Source: a virus
Direction: 5' to 3' (one strand)
IMG/VR virus record: IMGVR_UViG_3300023174_000440
Location: 1 to 32,248 of that record
Length of the DNA stretch: 32,248 bases
In this document: positions 4,537 through 27,763 of the stretch, piece after piece
Layout of the letters: every line of letters begins with the position of its first letter
How positions within the stretch are numbered: the first letter of the stretch is position 1
The notes under the pieces: model-generated
The model's input: only the letters and a program-made list of their open reading frames with translations
Database searches by the model: none
What the model was told of the DNA's origin: nothing
Program-made: the position numbers and the translations under genes

Positions 4537-5708
4537 TACTTAGCTTCTTCGTAATAGGCGTATTGCCCAAATGGAGGAACAATGTTTTGATTGCCATGGA
4601 TAATAAACAGTGTATCGCAATAGTGTTCGTCACCCCATGAACCATACGGATATCCATCAGTAAACATAATAAACTTCTTTGGCGTAATATTATGTTCTTT
4701 CATGTAGGTCCAGTTAGCATCAAACTCAGTGCCACCGCCGCCTTTGAGTTCGTAACTTTCAATATCATTCTCATAACTATCAAAGTCCTGCTCATTGTAA
4801 ACACTGGTGTCGAAACACCAAATTTTCACTTTGAAGTCTTTGTATTCGTCCATGATGCCTTTGATTTCGCTCAGCATGTCTTTGCCCATTGCGTCAGTAA
4901 TACTACCGCTCATGTCTAAGCCAACACAGATATCAATAGTTTCTTCATTTTTCATGCTGGGCAATACAGCACCTAACCCCCAACCTTTACGATTAGGACG
5001 AGTAAAGCTAAAATCAGACTTGATCAAACTTTGAATTTGCTGACGTAGGTATTGACGCCAATTAATTTTAGGCTCAGTAAGATCCTTAATAAGACGAGCT
5101 ACGCCTGCTGGGGTATTGCCTGCACCTGCGGCATTGGCTGCTTGGATAGTGGCTTCACGGATTTCGTCACGAATAGCCTTAAGCTCTTCTTTAGTATATT
5201 GCGGGCGACCATTTTCGCCTTCTTTATCCCAGTCAATGTGCTCGTCGAGTAGTTTGCCCAACTGCTCTAGTTCTTGGTCATCATACTTTTCCATGAGCTC
5301 GTCGTATACTTGCTCTGCACTCTTGCCATAATGCTGGGGATCATGGAAGATAGGAATCTTTGGAGGCTGCTCGCCAATATGGTCACGAATCAATTGACCG
5401 TTTACGCAATAGTCAGCAGCAATATTGAATACTTTACGATTGCGACCTTCGTTACGACCCAAATGATCGAATACGTTATGGAGGATTTCGTGTCCAATAA
5501 CAAATTCAACTTGTTTATTGGTCAAGTCTTCAAAAAAGTTTCGATTGTAGTAAAGTGCCCGACCATCCGTAGCAGCAGTGGCGCACCATTCAGTAGCATC
5601 AATAACTTTAAGACGAGTAGCCATGTTACCAAAAAATGGATGACGGAGTAGGAGACCTACTCGAGCTACGATAATTTTGTCAACGACTGGATCTAATGAA
5701 TGTTGCAT
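4536..5708 (-). CDS. Metallopeptidase-like / VWA-domain protein paired with MoxR ATPase
   Basis: A 390-residue two-domain protein. Residues ~1-110 form a zinc-peptidase-like domain with HEILH (HExxH) at 73-77 and a downstream 'NIAADYCVN' near 95-103 that may supply a third ligand. A helical linker follows. From ~255 comes a von Willebrand A domain with an intact MIDAS: D265-x-S-x-S269, T327 in 'GGGGTEFD' and D351 in 'FTDGYP'. This architecture is known in bacteria next to MoxR-family AAA+ proteins, which are thought to remodel or insert metal into partners. In cyanophages the comparable genes are often called CobS/CobT-like. It has a strong ribosome site (AGGAG) and its own promoter. The substrate is unknown. 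Confidence 0.85.
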   Translation of the reverse strand: MQHSLDPVVDKIIVARVGLLLRHPFFGNMATRLKVIDATEWCATAATDGRALYYNRNFFEDLTNKQVEFVIGHEILHNVFDHLGRNEGRNRKVFNIAADYCVNGQLIRDHIGEQPPKIPIFHDPQHYGKSAEQVYDELMEKYDDQELEQLGKLLDEHIDWDKEGENGRPQYTKEELKAIRDEIREATIQAANAAGAGNTPAGVARLIKDLTEPKINWRQYLRQQIQSLIKSDFSFTRPNRKGWGLGAVLPSMKNEETIDICVGLDMSGSITDAMGKDMLSEIKGIMDEYKDFKVKIWCFDTSVYNEQDFDSYENDIESYELKGGGGTEFDANWTYMKEHNITPKKFIMFTDGYPYGSWGDEHYCDTLFIIHGNQNIVPPFGQYAYYEEAK

Positions 5709-5732
5709 AATGCTCTCCTATATAATGTATAT

Positions 5733-5761
5733 AGTATAACACCGCCCGAAGGCGGTGTCAA
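5733..5761 (-). promoter_or_regulatory. Sigma70-type promoter for the metallopeptidase/VWA gene
   Basis: On the minus strand TTGACA (5756-5761) and TATACT (5733-5738) are separated by exactly 17 bases. They lie about 25 bases upstream of the ATG at 5708, with AGGAG between. The match is 6/6 at -35 and 5/6 at -10. Unusually, the spacer is itself the stem-loop described separately. Confidence 0.75.
5739..5758 (-). terminator. C(UUCG)G stem-loop after the MoxR gene
   Basis: A perfect 8-base-pair stem, ACACCGCC/GGCGGTGT, closed by TTCG when read on the minus strand, the ultra-stable C(UUCG)G tetraloop. It starts 14 bases after the MoxR stop codon. There is no clean T-run after it, so it may stabilise or process the mRNA 3' end, or terminate weakly. 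The stem also fills the spacer of the next promoter. Confidence 0.7.
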
Positions 5762-5771
5762 GTGGTAAATT

Positions 5772-6863
5772 TTACTTCTTTTCGGTAGCTGCCGAAATGT
5801 ACTTACCAAACTTAGTATGGAACTCATCGAAGCAATCAATCTCGTCTGGATCCAACGGCAATTGATATTGGGTAAGAGCAAGTTTAGTGCTCATAATAAC
5901 CAATTCAGTTTCAAAATTATCCATAATAAAACGGAAGAAGTTATTGACTTGTTTATCCCAAGTCTTCGCTCGTTTGTCGCTAGCATCTTTGAGTTCGTAG
6001 CAAAGACTAACGGCCAGTGAGTACATGGCGCTAATCTCACGCGATTCCATTTTCTTAACCTTGCCAATCAAAATGTCAGTGGGGTTAGGCATCTTGCTAG
6101 AAACTTTACGATGTGCCATAAACTTAATTGCAAGACCTTCACCAACAGCACCTGAAATAAGGTTAGTTAGGGTGTTTTCGTCAGTGTCATCGTCCTCCAG
6201 CAGCTCTGACACAAAGGTCCAGCTACGTGGAGTAGCGAACGCCTTTGAAGCAGACTTAGGATCAAAGTCATGAAGATCCTTTTTACTGAACGTCAAAAAG
6301 CCAACTACGTCTTTATGGATACGATTTTCGGTAGCCCAAAAAGCGTAATCGTCCCAATCCACACGCAGTTCCAAGTGAATAAAGCGATTGCTCAATGGAG
6401 CTGGCATACGATAAGTAACGCCGCGATCTGCTTCACGGTTACCAGCAGCTACAATTACCACATTGTCTGGCAAGCGATAAGTACCAATGCGGCGATTAAG
6501 AATAAGCTGATAAGCGGCAGCTTGAGTGCTACCAGGAGCACTGTTCATTTCATCCAAAAACAGGATGATCTTTTTGTGTTCTTTGGCCATTTCTTCGTCT
6601 GGCAGTTCGCTGGGAGGTGCCCAAAGCATTTTGCCACTGTTAGAATCGAAGTAAGGAACGCCTTTAATATCAGTGGGTTCCCAAAGGCTCAAGCGGATGT
6701 CGATGACGTGGGCACCGATGTCTTCGCCAATTTGCTTGACGATATCGCTTTTACCAATGCCAGCAGGGCCCCACAGGAAAAGTGGGCGTTGTTTGCTGAA
6801 GCATTTTTGAATTGCACGTTTAGCATCACGGGGGCCAACGGTGCGACTAATAATTTCGGACAT
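5772..6863 (-). CDS. MoxR/CobS-type AAA+ ATPase
   Basis: A 363-residue AAA+ ATPase. Walker A is 'GPAGIGKSD' at residues 32-40, Walker B 'IILFLDE' at 99-105, sensor 1 'VVAAGN' at about 137-142, and an arginine-finger-like 'PLSNRF' near 156-161. This matches the MoxR/CbbQ/CobS group, which works as ring-shaped remodellers together with VWA-domain partners. The partner here is the next gene downstream. Start: ATG with AAGGAA ahead and a sigma70-type promoter about 45 bases further up. The C-terminal third is helical and family-specific. The biochemical target (host enzyme, metal chelation, virion assembly) cannot be read from sequence. Confidence 0.9.
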   Translation of the reverse strand: MSEIISRTVGPRDAKRAIQKCFSKQRPLFLWGPAGIGKSDIVKQIGEDIGAHVIDIRLSLWEPTDIKGVPYFDSNSGKMLWAPPSELPDEEMAKEHKKIILFLDEMNSAPGSTQAAAYQLILNRRIGTYRLPDNVVIVAAGNREADRGVTYRMPAPLSNRFIHLELRVDWDDYAFWATENRIHKDVVGFLTFSKKDLHDFDPKSASKAFATPRSWTFVSELLEDDDTDENTLTNLISGAVGEGLAIKFMAHRKVSSKMPNPTDILIGKVKKMESREISAMYSLAVSLCYELKDASDKRAKTWDKQVNNFFRFIMDNFETELVIMSTKLALTQYQLPLDPDEIDCFDEFHTKFGKYISAATEKK

Positions 6864-6907
6864 AGCTTGTTTCCTTTGTTAAGTTGAAATAAATTTGCTA
6901 TGTTGTT

Positions 6908-10436: not shown

Positions 10437-11294
10437 TTAGGTTCCCCATTCGTTTTTAAATAATGGCACTTGAAGTCGGTCACTGTACCGCCATCCTTCT
10501 CGCATTGCCATTTCTGCCACACGCCTATTATTAAGACTGTACACCCGCTCAACGCCACCGACAGGCATAATATACACAGGGCCTTTAAAGCCATTATTTC
10601 TATATTGTTTGACTGCTTGTTGAGCATCTGTTAAGTCCTCTTCGCTTGCTATGACAAATTTCAAGTAGGTATAGCCAACTTTTTCATAGTCGCATACCAC
10701 TTCGGGAAGGATAGCTTCCTCCCATTTTTCCCCACTCACTGGCAGTTTAGCACTAACACTGAACGTGACTTCCCTTTGTCGTGAATGCCGGTCACTCCAG
10801 TTAATTAAGTAATTTTTAAATTCTGGAGTTAATTTCTGAGTGCCGTTAGTTTCAAAAGTTAAGTGACGCAATCTTATCATCGACTCTTCATCTAGCAGTT
10901 CAGGATAGCTACGTTGCCAGCCTAGCAAGGGTTCTCCCCCTGTAATAACAAGATGCTCATCATGCCAATTTTTATGTGGCAATAAGTCTACTATACCTTT
11001 GGCCAAAGCACTTACTTCATATAAGGGGCTAAGATGTTTAAAGTTAGGATCCCAACTAGCATAGCTATCACAGCCAGTACTTACCAGTGGTAAGTCTTTG
11101 TAGCTTTTAAACGGCCGTTCTTCATCAGTTAATGCTACATTTACTCTTTCTATGCTTTTTTCACCACGTGGCATACCAAAACCATCGCAGGTAAAGTTGC
11201 AACCAAAAGTACGTAAGAAAATAGAAGGCACGCCCATATAGCGTCCTTCCCCTTGTATTGAATAAAATAGTTCGCTGATTTTAATCTTGCTCAT
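10437..11294 (-). CDS. queE: 7-carboxy-7-deazaguanine synthase QueE (radical SAM)
   Basis: Converts 6-carboxytetrahydropterin to 7-carboxy-7-deazaguanine (CDG). Numbered from the ATG at 11294: 'FYSIQGEG' at 10-17 is the QueE N-terminal motif, and 'FLRTFGCNFTC' ends at Cys36. The third iron-sulfur Cys is not in the usual place; 'GFGMPRG' follows and the next Cys is at 75 in 'TGCDSYASWD', which aligns with the canonical C-D-T-x-Y. GGEPL is at 119-123. A longer reading frame uses TTG at 11324; ATG is preferred because it begins right at the conserved domain. It overlaps mazG by 14 bases. FolE, a QueD-like protein and DpdA are encoded nearby. Confidence 0.9.
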   Translation of the reverse strand: MSKIKISELFYSIQGEGRYMGVPSIFLRTFGCNFTCDGFGMPRGEKSIERVNVALTDEERPFKSYKDLPLVSTGCDSYASWDPNFKHLSPLYEVSALAKGIVDLLPHKNWHDEHLVITGGEPLLGWQRSYPELLDEESMIRLRHLTFETNGTQKLTPEFKNYLINWSDRHSRQREVTFSVSAKLPVSGEKWEEAILPEVVCDYEKVGYTYLKFVIASEEDLTDAQQAVKQYRNNGFKGPVYIMPVGGVERVYSLNNRRVAEMAMREGWRYSDRLQVPLFKNEWGT

Positions 11295-12339: not shown

Positions 12340-13035
12340 TTATCTTGGTGCAAAGTCTTGTTGGAGTTTAATGTTATCAAAAAACTCCTTCTTAGTGCCC
12401 ACGTCTTCTTTAAATGCACCTTTTAAGACTGTGGTTTGTGTGAGACTGGAATGTGCCATAATTCCGCGGTTTTCGCAACATCCATGAGTGGCCTGTATAT
12501 AAACACCAACGTTTTTACTATCAGTTGCTTTAGAAATCTCCCTAGCAATATCATTACATAGTTCTTCTTGGAGAGTGCCTCTCCGAGCACACCACTGAGC
12601 AATCCTTGTGTATTTTGACAAGCCAATGACTTTACCATTTGGAATAATTCCAATATAGGCAACACCATTAACTGGTTGATGATGATGACTGCACATACTA
12701 CGAAGTTCACTGCGTACTACCAACATGCCAGTATAAGCATCCTCGCCTTCATTTGGAAAGCTAGTAGCATCTGGTGCAGGCTCGTAACGCCCTGCCATGA
12801 TTTCGTTAAAGTACATTTTAGCCAATCGACGAGCAGTTCCCTTGCTATTAGGGTCATTTTCTCTGTCAATTAGTAATGAGTCGAGAACAGATTCAAATGC
12901 CTTAGTAGCATCGTTAATTAGTTCTTCTTTGAAGTTTTCTTCCACATAATCGGATATATTATCGCCTGCCCAGAATCTCTTACCTTCTCGGCGCATACGA
13001 TCACGCAATACTTGTGCTAGATTTTTTTCAGCCAT
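12340..13035 (-). CDS. folE: GTP cyclohydrolase I, FolE
   Basis: Converts GTP to dihydroneopterin triphosphate, the first step for both folate and 7-deazaguanine synthesis. Zinc ligands are in place: C115 and H118 in 'MCSHHHQP', and C186 in 'HGCCENRG'; 'GLSKYTRIAQWCARR' near 138-152 is the conserved substrate loop. At 231 residues it matches FolE1. AAGGAA lies 6 bases before the ATG, and a perfect-consensus promoter lies just upstream. With queE, a queD-like gene and dpdA in the window, a role in deazaguanine supply is likelier than folate alone, although thyX also consumes folate. Confidence 0.95.
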   Translation of the reverse strand: MAEKNLAQVLRDRMRREGKRFWAGDNISDYVEENFKEELINDATKAFESVLDSLLIDRENDPNSKGTARRLAKMYFNEIMAGRYEPAPDATSFPNEGEDAYTGMLVVRSELRSMCSHHHQPVNGVAYIGIIPNGKVIGLSKYTRIAQWCARRGTLQEELCNDIAREISKATDSKNVGVYIQATHGCCENRGIMAHSSLTQTTVLKGAFKEDVGTKKEFFDNIKLQQDFAPR

Positions 13036-14956: not shown

Positions 14957-15413
14957 CTTTAACCATGTTATATATGGAAACGACTTTGTCCATAGCTTTG
15001 TCTAGAGCTGGATATTTGACACGCATATTTTTTACTTTATTGAAGTCGGGCCAAGTATCAACCCATTCGACCTGATTCAAACTCCAGCTAGTATTGAGCA
15101 GTGTTGAAATGTCTACAGTGCCAATGGCACTGATTGACGCAGTAGCAAGTGGGCCAATAGTATTTGTGTAAGTTAGCCCACTGGCAGTTGTATAAGCATT
15201 ACCAGCCATGGTGCTGCCAAAGCTGCCGTAGTTATATCCAGCAGTGTAATTGCTTGAGTAATCTTGAAGAGTTATTGTGTCATCACCAACAACAAGACTG
15301 CTCAAACTACTAATATCAAAAGTAGTTAATGGCTGTATGTCTTGTGTAGTTAAGCTGGGTACATCACTATCCCAAGTTACTGTATAATGCTGTTGCGGAG
15401 AAAAATCGCTCAT
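14925..15413 (-). CDS. Ser/Thr-rich protein, probable structural protein
   Basis: A 162-residue protein. Residues ~10-120 are Ser/Thr/Gly/Ala-rich with little charge ('YGSFGSTMAGNAYTTASGLT'), like phage tail or decoration protein. The last 35 residues form a helical, basic segment ('VKYPALDKAMDKVVSIYNMV') that I recall as a recurring C-terminal module in T4-like phages. AAGGAT precedes the ATG. It overlaps the glycosyltransferase gene by 47 bases. Virion location is inference. Confidence 0.6.
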   Translation of the reverse strand: MSDFSPQQHYTVTWDSDVPSLTTQDIQPLTTFDISSLSSLVVGDDTITLQDYSSNYTAGYNYGSFGSTMAGNAYTTASGLTYTNTIGPLATASISAIGTVDISTLLNTSWSLNQVEWVDTWPDFNKVKNMRVKYPALDKAMDKVVSIYNMVKDDYDNPVPKK

Positions 15414-16464
15414 GTAAATCCTTTTCTTGTTTTCTTACTAATGCTATTTTACTTTCATAATTTTCCATATGATTTACGATGTCTTCAATCAAAAAATGTT
15501 TAAATTGCTTGTAGGATTCAAAACTTTCAGTAAATTCTGTAGGATATTTAAATTCGTCGTAGTACATTTCTCTGTAGCTTAGACGATCAGGTACCATGGG
15601 AATTGCATTTAATACCGAACCTTCATAGCAACTAATACCCAATGTTTCTTGTAAGTTAGCACTGAATACTATCTTAGCCTCAGCCAACAAGGTATGATAT
15701 TCATGTTTAGTCAATTGATGATCTTGGCAAACAACAAAGTCATATTGTGGTAATTGTCGAGCCAAGTCTCTAAAAATATCTACTTGTTTTTCTGGAGCAA
15801 TACGATGTGGGAATAAAATAAGATCTCTTTTGGGAAGACTACGATAACCTTTTAGGATTTTCTGCATATATTCCATAGGCCAACCAGTCTTTACAATCTT
15901 GCCACTGGCATATCTATTAGCCCAATCCTCTTCCCAATAGGGATTTTCACCTTTGAATCCGCCATTGAGTAGTTCCTGCATAAACAGCTCAACGTGGAAT
16001 TCTGTGGCAAAGTAGTTATGGTCAAGAGCATAGAAGTAGCTCATCTCAGCACAGACTACCCAAGGTTGGGGACCAATCAGTCTGCCTAGGAAGTCTTGGG
16101 GATCGTAGCTGCCGGCGTGCCAAAGACCATGAGTCTTTACTGGCACACCAAGCAGTTCAGACATGTATTTGAGATTGATGATTCCAGGGTGCCAAGCATC
16201 TGTAAAGATAAAATGATCACCAGGCTTAACTGCTCCGGCGCAAAATAGACGACCCATTTTTTCAACTTGGGCAGACTTATAAATGTTTGTACCACCAAAG
16301 TTAAGAAAAGCACCGGGAGTAGTAGCACTAGGGATATCACTAGGCCCACTAATAACTTCAACTTCATGTCCGAGTTTCCTAAGAGTTTCGGGCAAGTGGA
16401 TTTTCCACTGCCCGGTGTACCTAGTCTCTACGGCTTCGAGATCAACTAGGAATATTTTGCTCAT
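15367..16464 (-). CDS. GT4-like glycosyltransferase
   Basis: A 365-residue GT-B glycosyltransferase starting 'MSKIFLVDLEAVETRYTGQW'. The ATG at 16464 is preferred over an upstream frame start at 16488 because the family-like N terminus begins there. The C-terminal donor domain shows 'LILFPHRIAPEKQVDIFRDL' (~217-236) and 'FSANLQETLGISCYEGSVLN' (~275-294), the conserved E-x7-E-like block of family GT4. 'LPETLRKLGHEVEVISG' is the N-terminal acceptor-domain entry. The sugar and acceptor are unknown. It overlaps the 82-residue gene by 23 bases. It could modify DNA bases, a fibre, or host glycans. Confidence 0.8.
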   Translation of the reverse strand: MSKIFLVDLEAVETRYTGQWKIHLPETLRKLGHEVEVISGPSDIPSATTPGAFLNFGGTNIYKSAQVEKMGRLFCAGAVKPGDHFIFTDAWHPGIINLKYMSELLGVPVKTHGLWHAGSYDPQDFLGRLIGPQPWVVCAEMSYFYALDHNYFATEFHVELFMQELLNGGFKGENPYWEEDWANRYASGKIVKTGWPMEYMQKILKGYRSLPKRDLILFPHRIAPEKQVDIFRDLARQLPQYDFVVCQDHQLTKHEYHTLLAEAKIVFSANLQETLGISCYEGSVLNAIPMVPDRLSYREMYYDEFKYPTEFTESFESYKQFKHFLIEDIVNHMENYESKIALVRKQEKDLHERFFSATALYSNLG

Positions 16465-16690
16465 TACGCTTACGTCCTTGTCCAGCATTTTTGCCTTGAT
16501 AGGGCTTGCGTGGTCGCTTACTGTTCATGTAAGCACTATATACTGGGCTGTTCTTTTTGTAAAGATCAGCTTCGTTAAAAGGTGCCAATTCAAACCTGCA
16601 CCAGTCGTGATAGGCTTCAAGATCATCGAAGATTTTATGTACTTCGGGTTTAAAAGTAAGATACTTGTTAAGCCATGCGGGTTGTGCCAT
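16442..16690 (-). CDS. Small conserved phage protein, unknown function
   Basis: An 82-residue protein. An acidic/aromatic helical core ('FKPEVHKIFDDLEAYHDWCR') precedes a highly basic disordered tail ('SKRPRKPYQGKNAGQGRKRN'), a layout suited to contacting nucleic acid. I recall the core in T4-like phages. AGGAAAG lies 5 bases before the ATG. It lies just after the QueD-like gene. Confidence 0.65.
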   Translation of the reverse strand: MAQPAWLNKYLTFKPEVHKIFDDLEAYHDWCRFELAPFNEADLYKKNSPVYSAYMNSKRPRKPYQGKNAGQGRKRNEQNIPS

Positions 16691-16712: not shown

Positions 16713-17102
16713 TTAATATTTAACAAACGAACCATTCTCTCCGTCTTCGGAGACTTCAATCCAGACTTCACGGTCAGGATACTTTGCGTGAATGATGTCA
16801 TAAAGTTCATCTGACATCATTTCACAACTCTTGTAGTCAAGGGTCATAGTCCCTTGGGCAAATAGGTTTTCGAGCCAGCGTTTGAATTGGATAAATTCAA
16901 CGTCACGATCATTGTGGGTAACTGAAAGCCAAACACGAAAATGAAATATATGACGGTGAGGATTAGCAAGAAACGATACATCATATTCATCACCTGTGGC
17001 CAGTGTGGGATCTGTGGCGGCTGCCGGATAACAATGGATGCCTTCTTTACGGAAGGTCACCCAAATCATTTTATTGGGTCGAACGTCTTGTTTAATAATC
17101 AT
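16713..17102 (-). CDS. Divergent QueD/PTPS-like T-fold protein
   Basis: A 129-residue protein that aligns by eye with 6-carboxytetrahydropterin synthase QueD. H49-R-H51-I-F matches the zinc motif HGH-x-(F/Y), H23 may be the third ligand, 'TMTLDYKSCEMMSDELYDII' (85-104) matches the 'LDH...ENLA' region, and 'VWIEVSEDGENGSFVKY' the C-terminal E-T strand. However, the catalytic Cys before HGH is absent, LDH is LDY and ET is ED, so it may have altered chemistry or only bind pterin. It ends the dpdA operon and overlaps the nuclease gene by ATGA. Context with folE and queE supports a pterin role. Confidence 0.6.
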   Translation of the reverse strand: MIIKQDVRPNKMIWVTFRKEGIHCYPAAATDPTLATGDEYDVSFLANPHRHIFHFRVWLSVTHNDRDVEFIQFKRWLENLFAQGTMTLDYKSCEMMSDELYDIIHAKYPDREVWIEVSEDGENGSFVKY

Positions 17103-17650
17103 GCTGGTTCAAATAAGTTGTCAAAATGTGGATTTGCCATAGTTTTAATTTTTTCCATTGCGCCTACGGATATTCTAAATTGATAGCCACTATTTTTTGC
17201 TTCAAAATAGCCATAAGTAGTACCACTTACATAACCAGATTCACCGTTGATAATTTTTTGTCTTGATTCTTCGTAGGCTTCTTCTAATCTTTTTTGAATA
17301 TAATCTGATCTAAAATCATAGAGTTTTTGATCTGTGATAACACTATCCTTGTGATAAACATGATAATGTTGCTGAAGTTTATCTTTTATGGGAGAATTTT
17401 TATATGGAGTAGTTATAATATCTTCTCTAGTCATAGTTCCAATAGCCCAGGCTGAGGTGGAATCTACATCTTTAGACTTCATTTCTAAGTCATGATTAGG
17501 ATAATCTGGACCTTTGCCAGGTTGTACTGGCATGCCAATTTCTGCGTGAAGTTTTTCAATATGATGACCAGTAACTCCAGAGGTTCTATGGGGTACAGAT
17601 TTGCCAACAAGGCTTTTATTAATTTTAACGATTTTTGGTTTCATAGTCAT
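17099..17650 (-). CDS. PD-(D/E)XK nuclease, MvaI/BcnI-like
   Basis: A 183-residue protein. 'GHHIEKLHAEIGMPVQPGKG' (28-47) leads into P48-D49 and 'DLEMKSKD' with E56-x-K58. This gives the helix-then-PD-then-ExK order of restriction-type nucleases, resembling the MvaI/BcnI group. A basic C-terminal half with 'GTTYGYFEAKNSGYQF' follows. The start is the ATG at 17650, which overlaps the upstream stop by ATGA; the longer frame to 17680 would overlap by 34 bases. It lies inside the dpdA-queD run, so it may cut unmodified DNA such as the host chromosome. Target site and sensitivity to 7-deazaguanine are inference. Confidence 0.65.
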   Translation of the reverse strand: MTMKPKIVKINKSLVGKSVPHRTSGVTGHHIEKLHAEIGMPVQPGKGPDYPNHDLEMKSKDVDSTSAWAIGTMTREDIITTPYKNSPIKDKLQQHYHVYHKDSVITDQKLYDFRSDYIQKRLEEAYEESRQKIINGESGYVSGTTYGYFEAKNSGYQFRISVGAMEKIKTMANPHFDNLFEPA

Positions 17651-18150
17651 AGTGGTGTATCCTCGGTATATTCGTCCCAACCAGTAAAATTACTACGATC
17701 CATCAGGGAATGTAGACTATGTGACCACACACCAGGATTAGTATCACCCCAAGTTGTATCATCAATCTTCACAGTGGTGTTGTAATTGAACAGACCAATA
17801 TATGGCAGTTTCACACTGATCATGGGGATAAAATGATCGTTCTCGCACCATCCTTCTTCGTGAAAATCACGAGCATAGCTAACGTCAAAGTCTAAGGTTA
17901 CCCAATAGCCCAGTTCTAACAAGCCTTTGATCATATGATCCCACGACTTCCAATCTTCGTAAGTTTGTGGTGTGAAGCTTTGACTAGTGCCAAGATAGAT
18001 ATGACGGAGGTTATTGACCTTTAGTACAATTTCCTCTACGGGTTTAACGCCAACTACGAACAATGTGCGTTCACCTTTCATTGGGGTATGTTCAACTTCT
18101 ACGCCAATAAAGTAGTCTACGTTCTGTCTACCTTCTGTATCTATTGCCAT
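17647..18150 (-). CDS. Unknown protein of the dpdA operon
   Basis: A 167-residue protein starting 'MAIDTEGRQNVDYFIGVEVE'. AGAGG lies 9 bases before the ATG at 18150; the longer frame to 18213 would run deep into the dehydrogenase gene. It is alpha/beta in character with many aromatic and acidic residues: 'FVVGVKPVEEIVLKVNNLRH', 'YWVTLDFDVSYARDFHEEGW' and 'MISVKLPYIGLFNYNTTVKI'. I recall relatives in marine phages but no function. Tight coupling to the dehydrogenase before it and the nuclease after it makes it a likely part of the same pathway. Confidence 0.7.
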   Translation of the reverse strand: MAIDTEGRQNVDYFIGVEVEHTPMKGERTLFVVGVKPVEEIVLKVNNLRHIYLGTSQSFTPQTYEDWKSWDHMIKGLLELGYWVTLDFDVSYARDFHEEGWCENDHFIPMISVKLPYIGLFNYNTTVKIDDTTWGDTNPGVWSHSLHSLMDRSNFTGWDEYTEDTPL

Positions 18151-19043
18151 TCTATGTAACCTCTGCTGTAATTTTCTGGACGATCTGCGCCATCTTGGAA
18201 TGCTTGTTGCCATTCAGTGTCACGATTATAGCTTCTTGTCCAGAACTTGTCAACATCAAGTTTGCCATTTTCAATCATCCAAACAGCATCTCTCATACAT
18301 TGATGAAATTTAGAATTACGTGGACTAGGAAATACCATAGTAGTAGCTTTCCAAAGCATTTTATCAAAAGTAGTACTAACTGGCTGTGTTTTGGCAGCTG
18401 CCATAATGATTAAGGCACAATCTTTATATAAATCACTGTCAAGAATATCACTTCGGCTGCTCAAATCAATTATGACATCGTATTGATCATTAGTTGACGC
18501 TAATAATTTATCACCCCATATATCTTGATTGGAACGCCCTACTACATCGATATCAAATCGTAAATGATAATATTTAGTAATAGTATGATAGGCAACCCAA
18601 GCTAGAAATCCGCTGCCTAAGATTAGTAGTTTGCTATTTGGGCCTTGCCGCCATCGCAATTCTGATAATGCTTGGCTAACGATGTTAACTCCACAGGCCA
18701 CTGGCTCAATAATATAGCGTGGATGCGCTTCTGGTACGGTGACATATTCATGCTGTCGTACTGTATAACGATCAGCATAGGCAGGTTCGCCTCTGGTAGC
18801 AACATAGTCACCGACTCGTACATCAAAAATTGCTGAACCAACCTGTGTAACTCGGCCTAAACCTTCGTGGCCTTGCATGTTCAAAGGTAATGGGCCAAAG
18901 TTTCCCTGCATCATGTCAATGTCACTGCGACAAACACCAGTCATAATGCTTTTAACTTCGATTTCGTTAGGGCTAAGTGGTGGGCAAGCATATTCGCTTT
19001 CCACAAATTCGCCCTGTCCAGTAGTTACTAGTATTCTATTCAT
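18141..19043 (-). CDS. Zinc-type MDR (alcohol dehydrogenase-like) oxidoreductase
   Basis: A 300-residue medium-chain dehydrogenase. Catalytic-zinc residues are C38 in 'GVCRSD', H59-E60 in 'GHEGLG' and 'EPVACG' at 113-118. The NAD(P)-binding turn is 'LLILGSGFLAW' at 139-149. The four-Cys structural zinc loop of classical ADHs is missing, which explains the shorter length. Related host enzymes oxidise sugar or polyol alcohols. It overlaps the Gfo/Idh/MocA gene by ATGA and the next gene by 10 bases. MDR and Gfo domains also occur fused in some bacterial polysaccharide enzymes, so the pair may act on one substrate. Confidence 0.82.
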   Translation of the reverse strand: MNRILVTTGQGEFVESEYACPPLSPNEIEVKSIMTGVCRSDIDMMQGNFGPLPLNMQGHEGLGRVTQVGSAIFDVRVGDYVATRGEPAYADRYTVRQHEYVTVPEAHPRYIIEPVACGVNIVSQALSELRWRQGPNSKLLILGSGFLAWVAYHTITKYYHLRFDIDVVGRSNQDIWGDKLLASTNDQYDVIIDLSSRSDILDSDLYKDCALIIMAAAKTQPVSTTFDKMLWKATTMVFPSPRNSKFHQCMRDAVWMIENGKLDVDKFWTRSYNRDTEWQQAFQDGADRPENYSRGYIEWQ

Positions 19044-19933
19044 AGTTTCTCAATTTTTTTATGGATCCATTGATCTTGATAATGTTGGTCATTCCAAAAT
19101 TCCGTATCATCAATGTTGGCAATTGCCGTTTCAATCATTTTTTTGTAGGCACTTTCTGGGCAAAGTCCTAATGGTTTGGATATTTTTTTATCTCCATCTA
19201 ATACAAACTCGATTTGTATGTCATCTCCGTTTAGGCTACGCCAATCTGCTGTGAATGTCCACATAGTTTCTTCGCCTAGGAAGCCTAATCTACAGTAGTC
19301 ATCTACATTGTATACCCCTTGGTTGTTGACAACACCATAATTTGTGTTAGTAATATCAGTTAATTGCCAGCGTTGTCTAACATCTTTGCGTACACGATTA
19401 GCTTCGTCGTACTGGTTATCTAAGGCAATCCATAAACTGAGTAAATGTGGCATAAGATCACGACTAACTCCGCCAAACGCCAATTCTTTATTGGTAAACC
19501 AAGTACCTGGATTAGGTACACGATCATGATTAATCCAATTAACGTTGACAATTACGCTGGCAGCAGCAAGAGTTTGTAGTTCATCAATCTCATCACGATA
19601 TTGATTGTTCTTGACCATCATGATTCTTGTGGCGGGATTATTATCTACTAGTTTATCCCATGCATCTGCGGTGATTAATCCAGGTTTTTCTATAAAAACG
19701 ATCTTGGCTTTTGGTGCCACTATGTATGCAATACCTTCGTGAGTATAGTTAGGTGTACAAATATGCACAGTGTCGAACTGATCATAATCAGCCAGGGCTT
19801 CTTCTACGGTGGTATAATCTGTGTGTTTAGCAGGATCACTATCTACTGTTACAACAGTATGATCCATTTGTTCTAGCACAGTACGATATAGTTCGCCTAT
19901 GCCCATTCCTATGATAAGACTAAGTGGTTTCAT
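19040..19933 (-). CDS. Gfo/Idh/MocA-family oxidoreductase
   Basis: A 297-residue NAD(P)-dependent oxidoreductase. The N-terminal Rossmann turn is 'LIIGMGIGELY' (6-16), the family's E-K-P is at 82-84 ('IEKPGLIT'), and 'GGVSRDLMPHLLSL' at 154-167 matches the 'GG...D...H' catalytic block. The start is the ATG at 19933, inside the end of dpdA (14-base overlap). Substrates in the family are sugars, inositols and related cyclic polyols. Immediate coupling to dpdA on one side and the MDR dehydrogenase on the other is unusual for a phage and suggests a shared product. Confidence 0.85.
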   Translation of the reverse strand: MKPLSLIIGMGIGELYRTVLEQMDHTVVTVDSDPAKHTDYTTVEEALADYDQFDTVHICTPNYTHEGIAYIVAPKAKIVFIEKPGLITADAWDKLVDNNPATRIMMVKNNQYRDEIDELQTLAAASVIVNVNWINHDRVPNPGTWFTNKELAFGGVSRDLMPHLLSLWIALDNQYDEANRVRKDVRQRWQLTDITNTNYGVVNNQGVYNVDDYCRLGFLGEETMWTFTADWRSLNGDDIQIEFVLDGDKKISKPLGLCPESAYKKMIETAIANIDDTEFWNDQHYQDQWIHKKIEKL

Positions 19934-21467
19934 TGTTAAGTTGTTCAAGTTTAAGTGTTTCTTCTTCACTAAAATCTTCGGTATGATCTGATTCTATATT
20001 GTTTTCATTGACTTCGTCAAATAGAATGGAAAAGTGTGTGCTTGAGTTTACAGTTTTTTTGCCGACAGCGCCACGAGTACCAATAATGCTAGTCCAATAA
20101 CGGCTATATTCTTTGACCACTGCTTCAGCTATACCTTTGTCCGATGTTGCAAAAACGGCTTCTACAATGTCTTTAAAATATAAACGATCGAATTCTTCTT
20201 GTACTAACATGGCAGGAACTTTACCAGCATCATATTGCCTGTTAGCTTCTTGTACAGCATTACAGTGCATCCAAACATTATGCCCCATCATGATAGCATA
20301 ACTAAATGAATCCCATGATGTTTTTCCTTCCTTACCTATTTTATTTAGGTCACCGGGTTTATAAATGCAAATATCCTTGATCTGAACACCATCCATGACA
20401 GGACTAAGTTCAAAGGTTTTAAACAAGCTGTCTTGTATAACAGCATCACTATATAATCGAGTATCTGTAGCGTATTTTTTATCATCTACACCAGGCACCA
20501 TTCGATAAGTCCATTTATGTCTATCCTTGGTTTCTGTTTGAACATAAATTTGTCCGTTGGCTGTGGCTAAAAATGGACTGGCACAATCGAAACTAATAGT
20601 GAAATTTTCATTATGATATTTACGAACAGCACGTTGAATGTCTGTTAGTAAGGTGGCCCATTCTAATTTACTGGTTCCTAAAAAATGCATCCAGTCTTGA
20701 TGACCTTTTTCTAGTAATCCATCAAACCTCAGTGCAACTAGCCTTTTAAGAACCAAGTGGACATCACACATATTTTGCCCGCCCATGCCCCAACCGTTAA
20801 ATGCACGATCACCGTATTGTTTAGGGTCGCAATACTTTTTCATATGCTGATACCATCCTTCGGCGTCAGTATGATTTTCGCCTTGTAGTACATTTAAAAA
20901 TTTACAATTGCCATTTCGATTATTAATAAAATATTCATTGTTAATAAATGTACCTTGAACTGCTTCATTGTAGGTGCTAACACCTGTGGCTTTGGCACCA
21001 GCAGGGCTACGGGCAACCCATGCTGGGATATCCAACCCCATGCCATAGTCCATTAAACTGTCCATCCAAGTAAGAACTTGTTTGCGTTTTTTAGCAGCAG
21101 CCGGGCAATTAGGATTCTTCCAATCAGCGGGCCATACACCCTTGCCAATTTGAAAGCCTCCGGAATCGCCCAACACCCAACTGGTAGCACGATTCCTATT
21201 ACGGAACATGTCTTCACCCTCGTCTGGTTTATTAAGATCTAAGTTAGCATGTCCTGCTGAATACAAACAGTGATCATAATAAAATAGACCTTGATCAGGG
21301 TCTAAATAATTAAGACTTTCTACACCATTTTTAAAATTTACAGGAAGTCGTGCAGGGTCGACATAGTTACTATATCTTTGCTTGCCTATGAATGTACTAT
21401 AAAAACCAGATGTTGCCGGCAGAAACCATGCATAATCTTGTTGAGTTGCTGTTAAATTTTTATTCAT
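19920..21467 (-). CDS. dpdA: DpdA-like DNA (TGT-family) base transglycosylase
   Basis: A 515-residue member of the tRNA-guanine transglycosylase superfamily. 'GDSGGFQIGKG' at 100-110 matches the TGT base-binding motif with D101. 'DYGMGLDIPAW' (140-150), 'LNVLQGE' (191-197) and 'FNGWGMGG' (223-230) follow in the TGT order. 'SFDCASPF' at 292-299 gives the likely nucleophile D294. The usual tRNA-TGT zinc cluster C-x-C-x2-C is not seen. In phages such proteins (DpdA) exchange guanine in DNA for a 7-deazaguanine. It lies one base after the clamp gene, and folE, queE and a queD-like gene are in the window. Exact DpdA subgroup and product need testing. Confidence 0.85.
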   Translation of the reverse strand: MNKNLTATQQDYAWFLPATSGFYSTFIGKQRYSNYVDPARLPVNFKNGVESLNYLDPDQGLFYYDHCLYSAGHANLDLNKPDEGEDMFRNRNRATSWVLGDSGGFQIGKGVWPADWKNPNCPAAAKKRKQVLTWMDSLMDYGMGLDIPAWVARSPAGAKATGVSTYNEAVQGTFINNEYFINNRNGNCKFLNVLQGENHTDAEGWYQHMKKYCDPKQYGDRAFNGWGMGGQNMCDVHLVLKRLVALRFDGLLEKGHQDWMHFLGTSKLEWATLLTDIQRAVRKYHNENFTISFDCASPFLATANGQIYVQTETKDRHKWTYRMVPGVDDKKYATDTRLYSDAVIQDSLFKTFELSPVMDGVQIKDICIYKPGDLNKIGKEGKTSWDSFSYAIMMGHNVWMHCNAVQEANRQYDAGKVPAMLVQEEFDRLYFKDIVEAVFATSDKGIAEAVVKEYSRYWTSIIGTRGAVGKKTVNSSTHFSILFDEVNENNIESDHTEDFSEEETLKLEQLNNETT

Positions 21468-21468
21468 T

Positions 21469-22203
21469 TTATTTTAATTTGGGCGGAAGAATATAACTGT
21501 ATTCGCCTAGACCACTGTCAATGATAATTTGCATGGCGCCCTGGTCACTAATTTTCATTGTGCAGTCGCCGTTTAAATTTAGAATGGCTAAAACTTGCTG
21601 TACATCCCACGACCAAATATTTTTTAATTTTCCACCGGGGTTGCCTTGGAAAATAAAACTGCCAGTGTGACTACTTGCATCGCCGAAGCTAAAGACTAGA
21701 TTTTTATTTTCTACTTTAGCTTGAAATAATGGTTCACTACTATGAGCTTGAGCCTGTAATTTTAGTCGTTGAATGGAAACCACACTGGGATTGAATTCTA
21801 TATCCCAAGTAACTCCCTTGAATTTGAGGCTTTTAATTTTTTCATTGATAATTTCAGTACTAACAAATCTAAATTCATTACTAAAATCTCCACCTTCATT
21901 TGTGAAAGTAATGCTAGTAGGTACATCCTCGCCGTTTTGTTTAGTGGAATTTACTTCAATTAGAAAGTTTTCTTTGTATTCTGGACTTTTTAAAAGAAGA
22001 CTTAAGATGTCCAAGTTTCTCATACCAAATACTCCCTCCAATTCGGATACGGGATTTTTCATTTTGGCTTCAAGAACTACACTTTTATCATCAGCCATGC
22101 TTTCTAGTTTAGTTTCTGTGTCACTGCCAGTGACTTTGACCATTTCTAGAAAACCTAGTCCTTTGGTATGTGCTACGATGTCGGTTAAAATATCTTTAAT
22201 CAT
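21469..22203 (-). CDS. 45: Sliding clamp, gp45-like
   Basis: A 244-residue ring-clamp protein, similar in length to T4 gp45 (228). Support comes from position directly after DNA polymerase gp43, an all alpha/beta composition with repeated strands, and 'MRNLDILSLLLKSPEY' near 76-91, where gp45 has its 'LxGFLGILSL' segment. Start: ATG at 22203 with AAAGGAG 6 bases ahead; a longer frame lacks a ribosome site. The clamp tethers gp43 and, in T4, activates late transcription. A TCTAAATA sequence upstream may be a late-type promoter. Confidence 0.8.
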   Translation of the reverse strand: MIKDILTDIVAHTKGLGFLEMVKVTGSDTETKLESMADDKSVVLEAKMKNPVSELEGVFGMRNLDILSLLLKSPEYKENFLIEVNSTKQNGEDVPTSITFTNEGGDFSNEFRFVSTEIINEKIKSLKFKGVTWDIEFNPSVVSIQRLKLQAQAHSSEPLFQAKVENKNLVFSFGDASSHTGSFIFQGNPGGKLKNIWSWDVQQVLAILNLNGDCTMKISDQGAMQIIIDSGLGEYSYILPPKLK

Positions 22204-26788: not shown

Positions 26789-27763
26789 CTATATCCCAAA
26801 ATCTTTCATTAGGGCTCTAGCAATACGACCAAAACTTTCTCTTATAGGCGGCAGCCCAGTCTTAGGATCAAACCCGTGTTTTATCATCATGCTAATCCAT
26901 GATGGATCACCTAAACCCATATTTCCCCTACCAGGTATTACATTCCATGCTGTACCAAGAGCAAGCATTTCTGAAGCTTCCGTACCTTTTTGAATAGCAC
27001 GAACAGCGTCCCACGCATCTTGAGTTGACTGAGTAAATATGCCATCAATCGGGACTTTTTGTCCGTTTTTGTTTAACCAATATTGTAAAGCTATTGTTCC
27101 TGGATTTTTATAACCATTTTTAAATGGCTTGTCCCCGGGCTTTGGTTTAACTCCAGGCTTTGGTTTAACCTTATAGGGTGTTACTCCATAATCTGAATCA
27201 TTAGGTGGTTCGTATCCATCTTTAACTAATGCTTCATAGGTATGGGATCCAATTTTACCATCGACTACTAGTTTTTGTCCTGGTACACGTGGATCATCTC
27301 TGCCTTTTTGGAAAGCCATGATTTCGGCTCGTGTAGTAGGCCATTTTTTCTTTACCCTAGGATTAGGTGGATCAACTACAACATCATCTGGTTTCGGTGG
27401 TTCTGGTTTCGGTGGCTCTGGTTTCGGTGGCTCTGGTTTCGGTGGCTCTGGCTTTGGTGGTTCTGGTTTCGGTGGTTCTGGTTTCGGTGGTTCTGGTTTC
27501 GGTGGCTCAACTACAACATTGTCTGGTTTAGGTGGTTGTGGAGGAACGTCAGCTGGACCGTATTTAACATTATAAATATCACCAAAACGACTACGTATCA
27601 CAGTACCATCATCACTGATGGCAGCACTTAGAATCTTCTGTCCATTTCGAGGATCGATATCGCCTATGCGTAACGGCGGAAACTTTTCAAAATTAGCAGG
27701 ATCATCAGGGTCACCTATTTCGTCTAATCTACGAAGTTTGTCTAATATAGTTTTAATTTCCAT
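26789..27763 (-). CDS. Proline-repeat protein with two PG-binding-like motifs
   Basis: A 324-residue protein. It starts 'MEIKTILDKLRRLDE' (L-D-E leader end). Residues ~80-130 are a tandem Glu-Pro-Pro-Lys-Pro repeat, a stiff extended linker. Then come 'VDGKIGSHTYEALVKDG' (~165-182) and 'VPIDGIFTQSTQDAWDAV' (~237-254), both like peptidoglycan-binding repeats. The C terminus 'ARALMKDFGI' resembles that of the 715-residue neighbour. AAGGAT lies 7 bases before the ATG. Likely a virion protein with an envelope-binding part; location is inferred from leader and context. Confidence 0.7.
   Translation of the reverse strand: MEIKTILDKLRRLDEIGDPDDPANFEKFPPLRIGDIDPRNGQKILSAAISDDGTVIRSRFGDIYNVKYGPADVPPQPPKPDNVVVEPPKPEPPKPEPPKPEPPKPEPPKPEPPKPEPPKPEPPKPDDVVVDPPNPRVKKKWPTTRAEIMAFQKGRDDPRVPGQKLVVDGKIGSHTYEALVKDGYEPPNDSDYGVTPYKVKPKPGVKPKPGDKPFKNGYKNPGTIALQYWLNKNGQKVPIDGIFTQSTQDAWDAVRAIQKGTEASEMLALGTAWNVIPGRGNMGLGDPSWISMMIKHGFDPKTGLPPIRESFGRIARALMKDFGI
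27390..27509 (-). repeat. 15-base tandem repeat, eight copies, coding for EPPKP
   Basis: Eight adjacent 15-base units (plus-strand consensus GGTTTCGGTGGTTCT) lie inside the 324-residue gene. They differ at only a few third-codon positions and encode the Pro-rich linker. Copy number probably varies by slippage. It is not a CRISPR, as there are no spacers. Confidence 0.9.

Follow-up and report, generated by a model that had tools for sequence, protein, structure and literature searches.

A modular dpdA locus with an exchangeable dehydrogenase cassette in a T4-like phage: a possible route to glycosylated 7-deazaguanine in DNA

Comparison of more than 200 loci shows that the genes running from dpdA to a queD-like gene in this phage genome form a block of three parts, and not one fixed six-gene pathway. 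The core comprises DpdA, a QueD-like protein and a retaining GT4-like glycosyltransferase (GT), with folE and queE further down; an optional cassette encodes a Gfo/Idh/MocA-type dehydrogenase (Gfo), an MDR zinc dehydrogenase (MDR) and a 167-aa protein; and the third part is a nuclease gene, which is variably present. We propose, as a tentative reading on a nearly even call, that this block, carried by a family of aquatic bacteriophages, is a modular locus for hypermodification of phage DNA, in which a deazaguanine would be inserted and then glycosylated, the optional cassette would alter the decoration, and the nuclease would be a passenger.

The window (the whole stretch analysed, 32,248 nucleotides of IMG/VR record IMGVR_UViG_3300023174_000440) had been described in a first-pass annotation as carrying six open reading frames overlapping by 4 to 14 bases, and these, their order and their overlaps are all real, on the minus strand from 21467 to 16713. 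With gene starts chosen as those backed by homologues (Gfo at 19933, not 19969; the 167-aa gene at 18150, not 18213; the nuclease at 17650), the overlaps are 14 bases for dpdA/Gfo, 4 for Gfo/MDR, 10 for MDR/167-aa gene and 4 each for 167-aa gene/nuclease and nuclease/QueD-like. Such tight coupling had been taken as a sign of one pathway, a reading which we reject: 17 of the 23 adjacent gene pairs in the same block of the phage overlap and, because most neighbours here do so, overlap is weak evidence of a shared pathway. The locus continues past 16713, where a 22-base gap is followed by an 82-aa gene and then by the GT gene, conserved with the locus (Table 1). On the upstream side, dpdA is bordered directly by the genes for the sliding clamp and DNA polymerase, the clamp being identified as gp45 from sequence features and gene position. 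The glycosyltransferase had been overlooked in the first-pass annotation; it is more constant at the locus than the dehydrogenases.

Table 1. Features of the locus and its surroundings, in window positions.
Feature	Positions	Strand	Evidence or remark
dpdA, DNA guanine transglycosylase, TGT superfamily, 515 aa	19920..21467	-	motif, AlphaFold model, hhalign
Gfo/Idh/MocA-type dehydrogenase	19040..19933	-	PF01408 7e-6; 14-base overlap with dpdA
MDR zinc dehydrogenase, 300 aa	18141..19043	-	PF08240 3e-10
167-aa protein, Gfo/MDR-linked clade, third gene of optional cassette	17647..18150	-	
Optional nuclease-like gene, PD-(D/E)XK-like motif	17099..17650	-	motif read from sequence
QueD-like T-fold candidate, PHROG_17812, without QueD catalytic residues	16713..17102	-	
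Conserved 82-aa gene between QueD-like and glycosyltransferase	16442..16690	-	same position in 56/80 dpdA loci
GT4-like retaining glycosyltransferase (GT-B)	15367..16464	-	invariant motifs; outside the six genes first described
folE, GTP cyclohydrolase I	12340..13035	-	PF01227 5.5e-41
queE, 7-carboxy-7-deazaguanine synthase	10437..11294	-	alignment to annotated phage QueE; Cys, TGGEP motif conserved
Sliding clamp, gp45-like	21469..22203	-	PHROG_12062 7e-37; context directly upstream of dpdA, outside pathway

The dpdA call was confirmed by structure prediction, which gives DpdA the (beta-alpha)8 fold of the tRNA-guanine transglycosylases (TGTs). Foldseek of the AlphaFold model (pLDDT 88) found a TGT as its best PDB match (4e-6), and in structural comparison with the PDB all of the top 50 matches listed were TGTs (Z 18.1-18.8, approximately 300 residues at 4.4 A). 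A DSGGFQ-type motif (D101-SGGFQ), D146 and D294 are invariant in 42 DpdA homologues. The DpdA sequence profile had no significant match in the PDB; hhalign related the window DpdA to gp123 of Acidovorax phage ACP17 (E 1.7e-5), which itself matches TIGR00449 (4.6e-7). That DpdA acts on DNA, inserting a 7-deazaguanine, we infer purely from the folE, queE and queD context.

The QueD-like protein has a zinc-type histidine triad with an H-x-H (H23/H49/H51), plus E119/D120, all invariant in 100 sequences, and is related to phage QueD by hhalign (E 1.8e-5); its sequence profile matched nothing significant in the PDB. C30 and D73-H74, which are invariant in phage QueD, are missing from its alignment, and it is because this catalytic Cys and the Asp-His pair are absent that we call the protein QueD-like and not QueD. 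The original QueD-like label stands on motifs and a weak profile similarity; as a working QueD the protein was rejected, these residues being gone and true QueD genes lying elsewhere in relatives. Several phages encode it alongside a true QueD of their own, and in Cellulophaga phage phiST it lies beside QueD, QueE and FolE.

Genes for FolE, QueD and QueE are present in the phage genomes examined; in 16 records QueC was absent or unconvincing, and true QueD was found in 11. This gene set without a convincing QueC points to 7-deazaguanine, or the 7-carboxy form of it, as the probable modified base; that queC-less phages possibly carry the 7-carboxy base was already noted by Hutinet et al. 2019 (PMC6884629). 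In the scheme that we favour, FolE, QueD and QueE would make 7-carboxy-7-deazaguanine and, in genomes without QueC, the QueD-like protein would process it, most likely by decarboxylation to 7-deazaguanine; DpdA would then swap guanine in DNA for this 7-deazaguanine-type base. Cui et al. 2023 reportedly treated phage DpdA and 7-deazaguanine DNA modification, and are said to have predicted DpdL to be a 7-carboxy-7-deazaguanine decarboxylase, expected in queC-less pathways. DpdL and the QueD-like protein have the queC-less setting in common, a likeness of genetic context.

The combination of DpdA, GT and QueD-like turns up in five or more unrelated settings, Pseudomonas jumbo phages, ACP17 and bacterial chromosomes included, and its members occur side by side or in the same genome in lineages of differing gene order. 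They recur in the T4-like family of the window, in PA5oct, in Phosso, in X1 (GT-DpdA-QueD-like-QueE), in ACP17 (QueD-folE-167-aa homologue-DpdA-GT-QueD-like-QueE) and on contigs of Magnetospirillum, Verrucomicrobia and Aurantimonas; among cultured phages, Paride, PA5oct, ACP17 and X1 carry the core genes. In the GT, the EX7E motif (E281-x7-E289), R229, K234 and H124 are invariant in 83 of 83 sequences. The window GT itself reaches only 0.075 against the Glycos_transf_1 profile (PF00534); the X1 homologue matches it, as do 6 of the 18 members of the family alignment, the best member at 8e-12, and the sequence profile found nothing significant in the PDB. The GT would put a sugar on the base after DpdA insertion.

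Both dehydrogenase annotations are supported by the family matches in Table 1, and the sugar or polyol type proposed for the pair is borne out by their nearest families: levoglucosan and other sugar dehydrogenases among NCBIfam models for Gfo, and weak matches that include scyllo-inosose 3-dehydrogenase for MDR. GxGxG, E-K-P, D171 and H175 are conserved in 106 distinct Gfo sequences, and zinc-ligand C38, H59 and E60 are invariant in 105 MDR sequences. In PA5oct, Gfo is without GxGxxG and EKP and MDR is without the zinc Cys and His, and thus catalysis may not be the function common to the homologues. The two genes are tied to each other and to dpdA: a Gfo-seeded scan found MDR at 79 of 80 loci and dpdA at 77, and an MDR-seeded scan found Gfo at 79 of 80 and dpdA at 75 (a contig end cuts four of the five exceptions). 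Seen from dpdA, the proposed single coupled pathway is not borne out, since Gfo accompanies only 16 of 80 close dpdA relatives (with MDR within reach in 15 of these) and the nuclease accompanies seven. The counter-evidence foreseen in the first-pass annotation, dpdA without these neighbours, was found in part, most close dpdA relatives being without Gfo/MDR.

Gfo, MDR and the 167-aa protein are inherited as a unit. Loci with Gfo form one clade on the tree of the 167-aa protein, and wherever the cassette is present this protein comes from its own clade. Gfo status changes once on that tree (shuffled mean 10.9) and three times on that of dpdA (12.7), compared with nine times for QueD-like (10.2) and five for the GT (6.5); as co-evolution of the GT with Gfo-MDR was not seen on the last of these, a new sugar donor for the GT is not indicated. 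At one locus (L077) Gfo-MDR and the type of 167-aa gene switched together while dpdA stayed within the Gfo-positive clade; in the window, clamp and dpdA were replaced while the cassette stayed. Adjacency could in part explain why Gfo/MDR is linked to dpdA and to the 167-aa gene. Homologues of the 167-aa protein adjoin Gfo-MDR in PA5oct and folE/DpdA in ACP17, one of the phages that encode it without Gfo/MDR. Neither sequence profile nor structure comparison gave it a significant match in the PDB; its top VIA-align matches include QueE at Z 6.3 and 5.8, below the trust level of Z 8, hhalign against QueE (E 0.26) gave no profile similarity, and by hhalign its family has no relation to the X1 gene before the GT. 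The three cassette proteins may alter the decoration of the base further, with oxidation of the attached sugar, or of its nucleotide-sugar donor, as the likeliest means.

The slot after dpdA varies, holding Gfo/MDR, a flavin halogenase, a gene of approximately 85 aa or nothing, and other loci have a radical SAM gene between dpdA and Gfo or an SGNH-like gene after MDR; contents such as the halogenase and radical SAM genes would be expected of a cargo hot spot. It could be, then, that Gfo/MDR is an auxiliary module of host sugar or polyol metabolism sitting in such a hot spot, with no role in DNA modification. The rarity of the pair among close dpdA relatives fits this, as do two records with Gfo-MDR and no dpdA, and a SulP-like transporter found between Gfo and MDR in ten loci, for which no DNA-modification step accounts. 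We nevertheless consider a host-metabolism role unlikely: Gfo-MDR has remained with dpdA where lineages are rearranged; PA5oct, an unrelated jumbo phage, has Gfo-MDR-167-aa gene in the same order, as a separate block approximately 25 kb from dpdA, and encodes DpdA, GT and QueD-like as well; and the pair always travels with its own clade of a protein that phages lacking the pair, such as ACP17, also encode. The PF04820 halogenase directly follows dpdA in six of 80 dpdA loci and lies beside it in seven contigs; as a general dpdA partner it was set aside, since its homologues among the cyanophage/viral flavin halogenases of the same family occur in cyanophages without a dpdA match in our search. 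The window nuclease is without a Pfam match and a homologue is weakly like MutH (E 0.13), so that the PD-(D/E)XK call stands on its motif and is weak by profile; we would regard it as an unrelated passenger.

Gfo and MDR might instead act before DpdA, adding or oxidising a side group on the base or free precursor, which is close to what was first suggested. Their adjacency to and overlap with dpdA, and the clustering of Gfo status on the dpdA tree, are as this would predict, but adjacency also predicts the clustering, and the closest families of both enzymes are of sugar/polyol type. The window dpdA allele is nearest to those of phages without Gfo, yet the window keeps Gfo-MDR, so that DpdA need not match the cassette; that DpdA alleles swap across cassette types argues for cassette action after base insertion, and makes the earlier step, in our judgement, distinctly unlikely. 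Improbable, too, is that the GT, perhaps with the dehydrogenases, has its substrates among virion proteins, tRNA or glycans of the cell surface and is near dpdA by location only. Surface- or virion-acting glycosyltransferases are common in phages, and this GT is exchanged freely relative to Gfo status; however, the same GT family lies beside DpdA/QueD-like in bacterial chromosomes and in unrelated phages which share little else. We retain the modular DNA-hypermodification reading; what we infer from these comparisons is the whole of its chemistry, the identity of the sugar, the sequence in which the steps occur, DNA as the target and decoration of the base by Gfo/MDR.

Membership in a 7-deazaguanine DNA-modification locus is supported, and TGT-fold DpdA with FolE, QueD and QueE genes is shared with described phage DpdA systems (PMC6884629), the text on which is without glycosyltransferase or dehydrogenase; here GT, QueD-like, the 167-aa protein and optional Gfo-MDR are present and QueC is missing. 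Bacterial dpd islands (dpdA-K) likewise exchange guanine in DNA by DpdA, but as described they combine dpdA with dpdB, dpdC and a restriction operon, whereas the bacterial loci here are DpdA-GT-QueD-like groups. The T4 alpha/beta-glucosyltransferases and other phage DNA glycosyltransferases add sugar to a modified base after replication, as we propose here; the T4 acceptor is hydroxymethylcytosine, in contrast to the proposed 7-deazaguanine and a GT4-like enzyme with an EX7E motif. Glycosyltransfer to a preQ0-derived base has a precedent in huimycin (PMC7439116), whose Kutzneria cluster has folE, queD and queE by a glycosyltransferase sugaring a 7-deazaguanine-derived base, although the product is a free small molecule retaining the preQ0 nitrile and DpdA is absent. 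A literature search for DpdA combined with glycosyltransferase or MocA found nothing relevant, and we could not find a description of glycosylated 7-deazaguanine in DNA.

It is possible, if on balance doubtful, that glycosylated 7-deazaguanine is present in the DNA of these phages and of some bacterial islands, and that a subset oxidises the sugar via Gfo, MDR and the 167-aa protein, so that a single scaffold would bear chemical caps that can be exchanged. If so, a sugar-bearing deazaguanine would join the known DNA hypermodifications, a set of hypothetical genes would be accounted for in PA5oct, Paride and other well-studied jumbo phages, and the cassette would be a swappable tailoring unit, plausibly selected by host nucleases.

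The strongest result of our analysis is the recurrence of DpdA, a GT4-like glycosyltransferase (GT) and a QueD-like T-fold candidate together. The three genes are neighbours or near neighbours in PA5oct, ACP17 and X1, in Magnetospirillum and Verrucomicrobia contigs and in Aurantimonas, and all lie within the one genome of Phosso; gene orders and surroundings differ between these lineages. The 167-aa protein encoded near dpdA in the window is also encoded in PA5oct, and in ACP17 its gene adjoins folE and DpdA.

The bacterial contigs with these three genes (L270 and L273, also L271, L272 and L274-L276), some of which have an integrase-like gene, true QueD or a YhhQ-like transporter nearby, are possibly mobile islands. 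Loci from Neomarinimicrobiota, Euryarchaeota and Pacearchaeota MAGs (L265, L266, L268) are probably misbinned phage, since the phage block comes with polymerase and clamp. The T4-like group of the window locus extends to jumbo size, as its relatives on contigs of 329-400 kb (L190, L197, L248) indicate.

The DpdA of the window matched no Pfam, PHROG or NCBIfam model. Its identity is the firmest annotation of the locus because separate lines agree: an AlphaFold model built from 42 homologues (mean pLDDT 88) has tRNA-guanine transglycosylases as its top structural matches (Foldseek 4e-6; Z 18-19); neither the DSGGFQ motif nor the catalytic aspartates vary among homologues; and hhalign joins it to ACP17 gp123 (E 1.7e-5), which matches the TGT model TIGR00449 (4.6e-7). 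For the GT, all of 83 sequences show the EX7E motif and the basic residues known from retaining GT4-type enzymes, and a distant member of the family matches Glycos_transf_1 (8e-12).

Across 100 sequences the QueD-like protein conserves three histidines and a terminal Glu-Asp; it lacks the Cys and Asp-His that phage QueD holds invariant. ACP17, phiST and Rhizobium phage RHph_I1_18 each encode it together with a true QueD. Because QueC was absent, or a weak and partial match, in all 16 records tested, while true QueD was found in 11 of them, the pathway probably ends at 7-carboxy-7-deazaguanine, unless QueC comes from the host. Processing of this compound would be the most economical role to assign to the QueD-like protein; Cui and co-workers reportedly predicted in 2023 a decarboxylase, named DpdL.

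DpdA-made 7-deazaguanine DNA modification is already known (PMC6884629). Our literature search, the 2023 follow-up paper apart, found no report of its being joined to a glycosyltransferase or to Gfo/Idh/MocA-type (Gfo) and zinc (MDR) dehydrogenases. The huimycin cluster of folE, queD, queE and a GT is alike in that it can put a sugar on a preQ0-type base (PMC7439116).

In the window, a 32-kb viral contig, the six genes from dpdA to the QueD-like gene are present as the first-pass annotation described, overlapping by 14, 4, 10, 4 and 4 bases (starts set by homologues). DNA polymerase and sliding clamp directly adjoin them upstream; an 82-aa gene, the GT (outside the interval first annotated), cupin, HIT and methyltransferase-like genes, folE, mazG and queE follow downstream. 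The tight coupling had been read as a sign of one pathway, for which it is not sufficient alone, because 17 of 23 gene pairs in the stretch overlap.

Coordinates of features in the window and in compared loci
Locus	Position	Strand	Feature
Window	21467-16713	-	six-gene block
Window	22300-19900		clamp and dpdA, apparently replaced by recombination relative to L101; edge at dpdA/Gfo boundary
Window	17647-18150		167-aa protein
Window	16713-17102		QueD-like
Window	15367-16464		GT
Window	27318-27575		PKPEPP-type repeat
Window	26789-27763	-	structural-looking protein containing the repeat
L085 (PA5oct)	5099-6867		Gfo and MDR
L140	8829-10004		SulP-like anion transporter between Gfo and MDR
L125	7766-8905		radical SAM protein between dpdA and Gfo
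L128	7659-8798		radical SAM protein between dpdA and Gfo
L116	10746-11672		SGNH-hydrolase-like gene after MDR

Of the 80 loci that a dpdA similarity search gave, 16 carry Gfo and 15 MDR, always placed between dpdA and the 167-aa gene wherever the latter is in reach. MDR-seeded and Gfo-seeded scans nearly always returned loci with Gfo, MDR and dpdA, and dpdA lay within the fetched stretch in 166 of 173 loci having both dehydrogenases, the same contigs being counted repeatedly in part; L130 and L229 are exceptions whose records, possibly fragments, contain no dpdA. A divergent lineage has the order polymerase, clamp, QueD-like, dpdA, Gfo, MDR, 167-aa gene, GT, and thus the dpdA-cassette association outlasts rearrangement. 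In PA5oct the cassette keeps its three-gene order of Gfo, MDR and 167-aa gene about 25 kb away from dpdA, yet the Gfo and MDR there no longer have the NAD-binding glycines, the EKP lysine or the zinc Cys/His.

On trees drawn from the dpdA-seeded set, selected independently of Gfo status, that status changes once for the 167-aa protein (shuffled mean 10.9; SH-aLRT support 99% for the Gfo-bearing clade), 3 times for dpdA (12.7), 5 for GT (6.5) and 9 for QueD-like (10.2). This pattern is partly due to adjacency, and two natural swaps tell more. Locus L077 has a dpdA of the Gfo-bearing type, has lost Gfo and MDR, and has a 167-aa gene of the Gfo-lacking type. The window and its near relative L101 are mostly 82-96% identical in DNA, falling to 62-80% over the nuclease and over the clamp-dpdA stretch (about 22.3-19.9 kb), and the nearest relatives of the window dpdA are Gfo-lacking phages. 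These swaps show that dpdA alleles and cassettes are exchangeable, and that Gfo, MDR and their own type of 167-aa protein travel as a unit.

The slot next to dpdA also fits a cargo hot spot: its contents vary (halogenase, radical SAM and others), and ten loci have a SulP-like gene inserted between Gfo and MDR (L140, L170, L205, L213, L257 and five more; the family was read from sequence in five, an insert of such size being present in ten). These features, and the degenerate PA5oct dehydrogenases, count against a sugar mechanism after insertion. On seven contigs (L027-L029, L049-L051; also L279-L285) a flavin-dependent halogenase (PF04820, 4e-30) lies between dpdA and the 167-aa gene. C7 of 7-deazaguanine would be a plausible substrate for this halogenase, but its cyanophage homologues are in phages without a dpdA match. 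The cassette is proposed to act on the sugar, or on the donor of that sugar, once the base is in place, because the nearest families of Gfo and MDR are sugar and polyol dehydrogenases, DpdA need not match the cassette, and the GT is constant. That the GT does not co-vary with Gfo argues against a change of donor and lends slight support to the attached sugar being oxidised.
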